This document shows, piece by piece, positions 18,894-21,241 of a stretch of DNA of 39,229 bases (its first letter is position 1; every line of letters starts with the position of its first letter). The DNA lies in the NCBI GenBank assembly GCA_021773155.1, contig JAJFKQ010000237.1, positions 1 through 39,229 on the forward strand. The letters run 5' to 3'. A model generated the notes under the pieces. That model did no database searches. It saw only the letters and a program-made list of their open reading frames with translations, and was not told where the DNA came from. A program made the position numbers and the translations under genes. This stretch comes from Woeseiaceae bacterium (GTDB lineage: Bacteria > Pseudomonadota > Gammaproteobacteria > Steroidobacterales > Woeseiaceae).

Positions 18894-18936
18894 TTCTGTG
18901 ATTGACAGAATACATATTTGGGTATAGTTTACCCAA
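18894..18936 (+). promoter_or_regulatory. Putative promoter/operator of the DUF6502-DUF5666 operon
   Basis: TTGACA (18902-18907) inside inverted repeat TTCTGT-N5-ACAGAA (18894-18910); TATAGT (18923-18928) inside perfect inverted repeat TTGGGTA-N5-TACCCAA (18918-18936). Hexamer spacing is 15 nt, shorter than ideal. Confidence 0.55.
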
Positions 18937-18938
18937 CT

Positions 18939-19766
18939 ATGACGAATGGAAATAAATCCGCCGTGTATTACGCCTGCCGCCTGGTACTTCGGCCACTTGC
19001 CTCGATTTTTCTGAAGTGTGGGCTGACATGGAAGGAGTTCTCAGATTTGTCGAAATCGGTATTTGTCGAAGCGGCAACTCAGGAATTCGGCATCAAAGGA
19101 CGTCCGACCAACGTTTCGCGGGTGTCGATCATTACGGGAATTAGCCGTAAGGAAGTCAAACGACAGCGTGATCTGCTGCTGAATAACGAGCCCGTTGTTA
19201 AAGGCAAGACAACTGACGCAACGCGTGTCTTGTCGGGTTGGTTTCAGGACGCCGATTTTCTCGATCAAGCGGGCGAACCCATGCTTTTGCAGGAGACTGG
19301 GACCAAGCCCAGTTTTGAGGTGCTGTGTGATCGCTACAGCGGTGATATCGCGACGCAGACCATGCTCAAGGAGTTGCTGCAGACTGGAACCATTGAACGC
19401 ACGAAGGACGGCGAATTGCGGGTCATCCGGCGCTTCTACCAACCTGCAAAGCACGATGACGAGAACCTTACCTGGGGTATCGCGTTGATCACCGATCTCG
19501 CAGCGACGATGAATAACAACGTCTTCTTAAGCAATGCTGCGAGGCCGAGGTTTGGTCGTAAGGCCGAAAGCGTGCGGGTGTTACCGAGCAGCGTGAGTGA
19601 ATTTCACACATTTCTGGACATACGTGGTCAGGCGTTTCTGGAAGAGATCGACGTCTGGCTAACCAATCGCGAAGCAAACGATGATGCTCAAGAGTCTGCA
19701 TTCGTAAGACTGGGGGTTGGCATGTTTGCGATCGAAGAAAAGTTAAAAGAGGAGAGGGTTCGATGA
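18939..19766 (+). CDS. DUF6502 family protein (putative HTH-containing)
   Basis: 'YYACRLVLRPLASIFLKCGLTWKEFSDLSKSVFVEAATQEFGIKGRPTNVSRVSIITGISRKEVKRQRDLL'; HTH-like N-terminus. Start at ATG 18939 preferred to 18918. Confidence 0.8.
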   Translation: MTNGNKSAVYYACRLVLRPLASIFLKCGLTWKEFSDLSKSVFVEAATQEFGIKGRPTNVSRVSIITGISRKEVKRQRDLLLNNEPVVKGKTTDATRVLSGWFQDADFLDQAGEPMLLQETGTKPSFEVLCDRYSGDIATQTMLKELLQTGTIERTKDGELRVIRRFYQPAKHDDENLTWGIALITDLAATMNNNVFLSNAARPRFGRKAESVRVLPSSVSEFHTFLDIRGQAFLEEIDVWLTNREANDDAQESAFVRLGVGMFAIEEKLKEERVR

Positions 19767-21241
19767 AAAAGCAAAGACTTATCGCAGCGATTTTCTGCGG
19801 GATTATCTTGGCAGGAATTGCCGGTTGTGGTGGTGGAGCTAGCTTCGCCGAACAACCGCCAACGACAGCACCACCGCCACAAATAGGTGGCATCAGTGGC
19901 AACGGGGTTGCGATCGGACCTGTAACTACGTTCGGCAGTATTGTCGTTAACGGCGTTCGTTACGAAACTGATGGTACGAGTTTTACGATCAATGACGTTA
20001 GAGGTGGGACACAAGCTGACCTGAAAGTTGGTCAAATTGTTACAGTCAGCGGCACCATTAATAGTGACGGCAGCACCGGAACGGCGAATACCGTGGAATT
20101 TGACGGCAGTGTCAAAGGTCCGGTTGAGAGCATCGACCTGACCGCAGGACTAATGGTGGTACTTGGGCAGACTGTTCGTGTTGGACCGGACACGTCTTTC
20201 GATGACGGTTTTACGCCGGCTTCGCTCGAAGGTGTAAGCAACGGGCAGGTCGTAGAAGTGAGTGGTCAATTTGATGCGAATGGCAATATTGTTGCGACAC
20301 GAATTGAACCAAAGCCTGCAGGCACGCAGTTCGAAGTACACGGGACGATCAGTGCGCTTGACAGCGCAAACATGATGTTCAATTTGAACAATCTGGTAGT
20401 CGACTACAGCACAGCAACGTTGGATAACTTCGCGGGTGGCCAAATCAGTGACGGTGATTTTGTGGAAGCGAAAGGAATGACGCTTGGTGGAAACGGTGAG
20501 TTAGTCGCGACGATTGTTGAGCTTGAATCATTGTTGCCAGATACAAATGATGGTGATCGACTCGAAATTGAAGGTTTTATAACGAGGTTTGTTTCAGCAC
20601 AGGATTTCGATGTTGGAGGAGTTGCCGTTACAACCAATGGCAGCACGGTCTTCGACGGTGGTGCGGCTAGCGATCTGGGTCTGAATATCAAAATTGAGGC
20701 AGAAGGGGACGTCGATGCAAACGGAGTTCTTATCGCAGCCCGAATCGACATCCGTCGAGCAAAAGCCGTTCGTGCAACAGCGAATGTTGATTTTGTCGAC
20801 ACAGCGAATAATTCGCTGGTTGTACTCGGAATAACGGTAACGGTTGATGCACTGACTCGCCTTGAAGATAAGAGTAGTGCTGACGTTGATCCATTAACTC
20901 TGTCTGATGTAAACGCGGGAGACTATATCGCGGTACGTGGTGACGAGTTTCCTGCTGGCAGCGGGAACATGCAGGCGACGATACTCGAGCGCGACGATGC
21001 AGATACCGAGGTAATATTGCAAGGTTTCGTTGAGTCTGTCAGCGATCCATCGTATTCGGTGTTGGGCGTTACGATCGAGACCAATGGTGCTACGGTTTTT
21101 CGCGACGAGAATAATGCCATCATTCCGGCGACTGAATTCTTTAACCGTGTTGCGATAAACTCATTGGTGAAAGCGAAAGGCGCAGAGTTGTCTGATACGA
21201 CGATTACTGCAACCGAAGTGAAGTTCGAACTGGAGTTTTAG
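19763..21241 (+). CDS. DUF5666 domain-containing lipoprotein (repeated beta-rich domains)
   Basis: 492 aa; lipobox 'LAGIAGC'; 'GNGVAIGPVTTFGSIVVNGVRYETDGTSFTINDV' followed by repeated 'V.G.I......F...G..V...T.F....L..G..VEV.G....G.LVAT.IE' units; ATGA overlap with the upstream gene. Confidence 0.88.
   Translation: MKKQRLIAAIFCGIILAGIAGCGGGASFAEQPPTTAPPPQIGGISGNGVAIGPVTTFGSIVVNGVRYETDGTSFTINDVRGGTQADLKVGQIVTVSGTINSDGSTGTANTVEFDGSVKGPVESIDLTAGLMVVLGQTVRVGPDTSFDDGFTPASLEGVSNGQVVEVSGQFDANGNIVATRIEPKPAGTQFEVHGTISALDSANMMFNLNNLVVDYSTATLDNFAGGQISDGDFVEAKGMTLGGNGELVATIVELESLLPDTNDGDRLEIEGFITRFVSAQDFDVGGVAVTTNGSTVFDGGAASDLGLNIKIEAEGDVDANGVLIAARIDIRRAKAVRATANVDFVDTANNSLVVLGITVTVDALTRLEDKSSADVDPLTLSDVNAGDYIAVRGDEFPAGSGNMQATILERDDADTEVILQGFVESVSDPSYSVLGVTIETNGATVFRDENNAIIPATEFFNRVAINSLVKAKGAELSDTTITATEVKFELEF

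Follow-up and report, generated by a model that had tools for sequence, protein, structure and literature searches.

HetR, the cyanobacterial heterocyst master regulator, is described in Pfam by PF03574 and PF18460, and autorepressors made from leaderless mRNA are exemplified by lambda cI expressed from PRM and by tetR of Tn1721. The HetR protein acts as a dimeric regulator; its flap and hood domains have been described as novel folds (PMC4649674) and its structure as a unique fold (PMC7476756). HetR binds GAGGGGTCTAACCCCTC and requires GGGnnnnnCCC (PMC4192349); its contacts with palindromes of the GGG-N5-CCC type are made by Lys73, Arg62 and Glu71, and the HetR-DNA structure shows bonds from Lys73 to g6 and g5 of 5'-gcgaggggtctaacccctcat, bases located 5 and 6 bp away from the centre (PMC4649674). 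HetR also targets the promoter of its own gene.

Here we describe an operon in which a gene of the DUF6502 family precedes a gene for a DUF5666 lipoprotein, in a window (the whole stretch of DNA analysed) of 39,229 nucleotides. Both proteins are clear members of their Pfam families, DUF6502 of PF20112 (159.2 bits against a cut-off of 27; residues 8-268 on positions 3-264 of the 268 of the model) and DUF5666 of PF18914 (197.3 bits over six stretches, above the cut-off). As the first-pass annotation had noted, neither family has a described function; in the literature searched, DUF6502 was not mentioned at all and DUF5666 only once or twice in each of four papers. The operon is flanked by genes for a CoA-transferase III, a low-molecular-weight phosphatase and a convergent RNase E/G, and the nearest named relatives are Woeseiaceae and other gammaproteobacterial MAGs, the scan of named genomes having yielded only four loci. 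The features considered are the following:

18939-19766, + strand: DUF6502 gene (275 aa; PF20112, E 1.2e-46)
19763-21241, + strand: DUF5666 lipoprotein gene (492 aa; PF18914 in six stretches, E 3.8e-59)
18894-18910: outer repeat TTCTGT (18894-18899), GATTG, ACAGAA (18905-18910), which holds TTGACA; read directly
18902-18907, + strand: -35 hexamer TTGACA of the DUF6502-DUF5666 promoter; read directly
18918-18936, no strand assigned: operator TTGGGTA-TAGTT-TACCCAA, a 19-bp palindrome and predicted DUF6502 dimer site; arms TTGGGTA (18918-18924) and TACCCAA (18930-18936) and spacer TAGTT read directly
18923-18928, + strand: -10 hexamer TATAGT inside the palindrome; read directly, with a -10-like spacer kept in relatives
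19113-19181, + strand: helix-turn-helix, DUF6502 residues 59-81 (model helices 59-66 and 70-81)
19149-19151, + strand: codon of DUF6502 K71, the top column for operator base 4, which aligns with HetR K73

The repeats, hexamers and coordinates first reported for this region agree with our direct reading, as does the ATGA overlap between the two genes, and the dinucleotide CT (2 nt) separates the end of the palindrome from the ATG at 18939. Only 15 bp separate TTGACA from TATAGT, a short spacer, so the true -10 may lie one or two bases away.

The reading that we favour, to which we give a probability of about 0.8, is that DUF6502 is a dimeric helix-turn-helix protein with the fold of HetR that binds TTGGGTA-N5-TACCCAA over its own -10 and represses its operon, both binding and repression being inferred. 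The palindrome encloses the -10, so RNA polymerase should be blocked by a bound dimer, and repression would set the level of an exported lipoprotein with tandem OB-like domains. Transcription would begin at the ATG or a few bases before it, giving a leaderless or near-leaderless regulator mRNA, the lipoprotein would probably be translationally coupled through ATGA, and repression might be relieved by a ligand in the C-terminal, hood-like domain of DUF6502, a step that is also inferred. Autoregulation by DUF6502 had been proposed in the first-pass annotation, and the present analysis supports and extends that proposal, with DNA binding and the sign of control resting on inference only. Two features expected of an autoregulator, an operator overlapping its own promoter and the conservation of that operator in orthologues, are both present.

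To gauge conservation, DUF6502 genes were collected from relatives, family and class, giving 237 distinct genes; the family occurs in 81 of 276 gammaproteobacterial genomes sampled. A palindrome with a span of 17-19 bp, all four core pairs matched, at least five of six pairs matched and a distance of 0-4 nt to an in-frame ATG was present at 55 of 111 DUF6502-DUF5666 genes, versus 30 of 1369 control ORFs drawn from the same contigs (Fisher p 7.5e-47). By this rule, about half of the DUF6502-DUF5666 genes lack an ATG-abutting palindrome: in some of them it lies further upstream, and in others none was found. A blind complementarity scan, for which the ATG was picked without regard to repeats or palindromes, peaked at a centre 12.0 nt before the ATG (0.50 versus a mean of 0.27, z 6.0) with its runner-up at -11.5, positions that correspond to the 19-bp and 18-bp forms. 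These two forms can be written roughly as TTGaca-N-[TTGGGAaTAnAtTCCCAA]-N2-ATG and TTGaca-N-tCcATaa[TTGgGgTAAatTnCcCAA]-nTATG. The check suggested in the first-pass annotation, for a conserved repeat upstream of orthologues, was thus passed, with one correction: position and symmetry are kept, and the letters change with lineage (half-sites TTGGG, ATGGG, TTGAG, ATGTGC, TGAAA, ACGGG and ACAGG; in shorter form TGGG, TGAG, TGTG, TGAAA, CGGG and CAGG). Because the arms stay complementary despite these changes, we read the repeat as a dimer operator; symmetry kept under changing letters is, as far as sequence comparison without binding data can tell, the signature of a protein operator of this kind. 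Promoter palindromes of much greater length, such as CCTTATATGTGTG..CACACATATAAGG, were seen at L107, L112, L114, L243, L257 and L258, where the domain begins farther downstream.

A site over the -10 makes repression the natural reading for operons of the window type, where the palindrome covers the -10 and the probable transcription start and a bound dimer would normally block RNA polymerase. It is possible, and in our view quite unlikely, that DUF6502 binds this site and activates its own operon instead, as HetR does itself, being positively autoregulated (PMC7476756). Many operator-type members have a -35 and a -10 close to consensus, so that no activator would be needed: both hexamers match at 4/6 or better in 48 of 61 operator genes, versus 17% in shuffled sequence, and in most of the 61 the -10 lies in or at the palindrome, 6-11 nt before the ATG. 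The loci that lend activation some support are those with the arrangement DUF6502-DUF6502-exported protein. In 27 of 27 first genes at such loci, a TTGGG..CCCAA palindrome has its centre 59-61 nt before the ATG, which would be a class-I activator position near -60 provided that the mRNA is leaderless, and a perfect TATATT lies 8 nt before the ATG in 25 of 30; several of these loci carry TTCGGGAATAAATTCCCGA over the promoter of the second gene. The sign of control is therefore probably set by operator position, at the -10 in the window operon and at about -60 in the tandem loci, and we infer a single regulator family that represses or activates according to where its operator lies. DUF6502 pairs a few hundred nt apart were observed at L033, L038, L050, L052, L117, L118, L125, L207, L225 and other loci, with a first-gene palindrome like ACTTGGGCNATTTTTCCCAAGT about 60 nt before the ATG, and at L040, L042 and L044 the DUF6502-DUF5666 pair is convergent with a second DUF6502 gene.

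Less probable still is that the palindrome is the operator of another regulator encoded elsewhere and that DUF6502 merely resides in the operon. There is no binding assay to exclude this, and the covariation between protein and site described below is phylogenetically limited. Against it, the site occurs once in the genome, TTGGG-N9-CCCAA being single-copy in the 2.7 Mb assembly, and it accompanies DUF6502 in many families and also beyond the class, where all eight sampled DUF6502 genes have a DUF5666 neighbour and six of the eight have upstream palindromes such as GTGGGATTGTGTCCCAC and ATGGGAAAAAATCCCAT. The palindrome is also present at DUF6502 genes without DUF5666, its letters change along with the DUF6502 recognition helix, and the DUF6502 model itself has a helix-turn-helix and the fold of HetR.

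The link between site and helix centres on K71. Among all DUF6502 columns this residue has the strongest mutual information with operator base 4 (z 21.6; next 12.8), which lies 6 bp from the centre in 19-bp sites. Sites of the TGGG type have K at position 71 in 66/66, whereas R is found in 8 of 15 TGA. sites (K in 6, A in 1) and in 10 of 12 TGT. sites (K in the other 2). By eye, HetR HHLEPKRVK aligns with DUF6502 TGISRKEVK, each reaching from the turn into the first part of the recognition helix, so that Lys73 falls on K71; the GGG..CCC palindromes at DUF6502 genes have N8-N9 spacing, and no binding data accompany this alignment. Only about four changes of each trait occur on the tree, leaving an independent-pairs test without power, and L247, L034, L086 and L226 have TGA. 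sites yet keep K. For these reasons K71 is a good but unproven candidate for an operator contact.

The AlphaFold2 model of DUF6502 (pLDDT 89) consists of helices 3-26 and 31-50, the helix-turn-helix, a helical and beta segment at 126-162 and then long helices, and it contains at 59-66 and 70-81 the two helices of the HTH-like N-terminus that had been suspected from the translation. Foldseek searches of the PDB with this model returned HetR in all of the top five matches (4j00, 4yrv, 4hri twice and 3qoe), with E from 6.6e-5 to 1e-2 and probabilities of 0.90-1.00 (best E 6.6e-5, probability 1.00), while the first non-HetR match had E 0.2; the TM-score to HetR reached only 0.52. The test for the three-domain fold of HetR was met on the predicted model, and no match at E <= 0.001 was obtained in a viral structure library. 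Significant sequence homology between DUF6502 and HetR was not shown by hhalign, by profile against shuffles, by Pfam in both directions or by HetR_C, all of which were negative or marginal. The hhalign comparison covered 96 C-terminal columns with P 0.053; in the search with the DUF6502 profile, the score of HetR was matched by 11 of 1000 shuffled HetR sequences. Neither HetR Pfam model was listed among the families of 68 DUF6502 members, the DUF6502 Pfam model had no match on HetR, and the HetR_C search in relatives gave background-level matches only, likewise in control genomes; HetR was also looked for on plasmids, and none was found. We conclude that DUF6502 is predicted to fold like HetR, without claiming membership of the HetR family; common descent of the two seems likely, a judgement that rests on predicted structure.

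A symmetric repeat beside an ATG could also fold in RNA, and the palindrome might then act as a hairpin at the start codon and not as a DNA operator. We rejected this very improbable reading: the overlap with the -10 means that the 5' arm would stay untranscribed, there is no Shine-Dalgarno sequence to hide, and arm mismatches show no enrichment of G-T wobble (3/30). Shine-Dalgarno-like tetramers precede the ATG in 3 of 61 operator genes versus 228 of 760 other ORFs, from which we infer that the DUF6502 mRNA probably lacks a leader or has one of only a few nt.

Chance is hardly credible for the -10 palindrome, which by itself proves nothing because 39 kb should contain about two perfect 7-N5-7 repeats by chance, and it is refuted by a position conserved in dozens of genomes and by the blind-scan peak. 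For the -35 repeat chance is accepted. Of the nested repeats originally noticed over the promoter, the -10 palindrome is the conserved one, and TTCTGT-N5-ACAGAA was rejected as a functional repeat, its symmetry being lost even in the closest relatives (TTCTGT-GTTTG-ACAATA in L048, with 89% protein identity, and TTCCGT-AGTTG-ACAGAT in L035, with 75%); from these comparisons it is best read as a chance repeat around a consensus -35.

The product of the second gene has a signal peptide, the lipobox IAGC, a GISGNG motif and tandem OB-like beta-barrel domains; its AF2 model (pLDDT 90.7) is a chain of OB-like beta barrels, and the Foldseek PDB matches of the single domains are proteins of OB-fold type and PilY2. 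The tally of DUF6502-DUF5666 adjacency suggested in the first-pass annotation found DUF5666 after DUF6502 in 125 of all 237 genes (111 times behind a single gene, 14 times behind a tandem pair) and in 52 of 79 in the class-level sample, with the 4-nt overlap in 49 of 123. DUF6502 genes that lack DUF5666 often have a different exported protein as their neighbour. Near the N-terminus, 89 of 181 partners of either kind contain GIxx[TSN]G, versus 1 of 341 other exported-like ORFs. Motifs of the form GIxx[TSN]G or IxG[TSN][GD] were observed just after the signal peptide in partners with or without DUF5666, among them the window protein (19763-21241, GISGNG) and L275-L287, and in the tandem loci L228, L235, L236, L238, L240, L244 and L251 long arrays of 8-residue repeats directly follow the signal peptide; such repeats include AIDGTDAR, AITGTDVR, SINGSDLL, AIHGSGTE and GISGTGSR. 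A PatS-like RGxG was rejected as a partner motif, as it is not enriched in gammaproteobacterial partners (3/181 versus 24/341 controls) and was found only in four of five partners selected among the genes sampled beyond the class.

It is tempting to speculate that DUF6502 senses GIxx[TSN]G as HetR senses the RGSGR of PatS. DUF6502 would then be a proteobacterial branch of the HetR superfamily with peptide tuning like that of HetR, the N-terminal GIxx[TSN]G of the partner (IGGTG, IDGTD) would supply the ligand for the hood-like domain, and the pair would report lipoprotein export to its own promoter; we consider this joint reading unlikely.

Autorepression through the -10 palindrome would provide the DUF6502 family with a first testable function, a target site and a candidate specificity residue. 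The findings also suggest that the fold of HetR, called unique (PMC7476756) and investigated as the developmental switch for heterocysts, has look-alikes, and probably relatives, that control exported proteins in bacteria other than cyanobacteria, and such relatives, if true, raise the question of the origin of HetR and of its peptide control.

Compared with HetR, DUF6502 is alike in its predicted overall fold, for which HetR provides the five best PDB matches, in its N-terminal helix-turn-helix with a lysine at the same place in the recognition helix (K71/K73, by eye), in a GGG..CCC palindrome as its predicted target and in having that site upstream of its own gene. Unlike HetR, it is proteobacterial and lies in an operon with an exported protein, it has no significant sequence match to HetR, its site is GGG-N8/N9-CCC where that of HetR is GGG-N5-CCC, and the location of the site over the -10 suggests repression; we know of no PatS homologue for DUF6502. 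With lambda cI and tetR it would share, by inference, an operator that overlaps promoter elements, a start codon that coincides with the transcription start or adjoins it, and a regulator that limits its own synthesis, whereas its protein fold is unrelated to theirs, and its operator, -10 and ATG keep a fixed geometry across many families, in combination with a lipoprotein gene.
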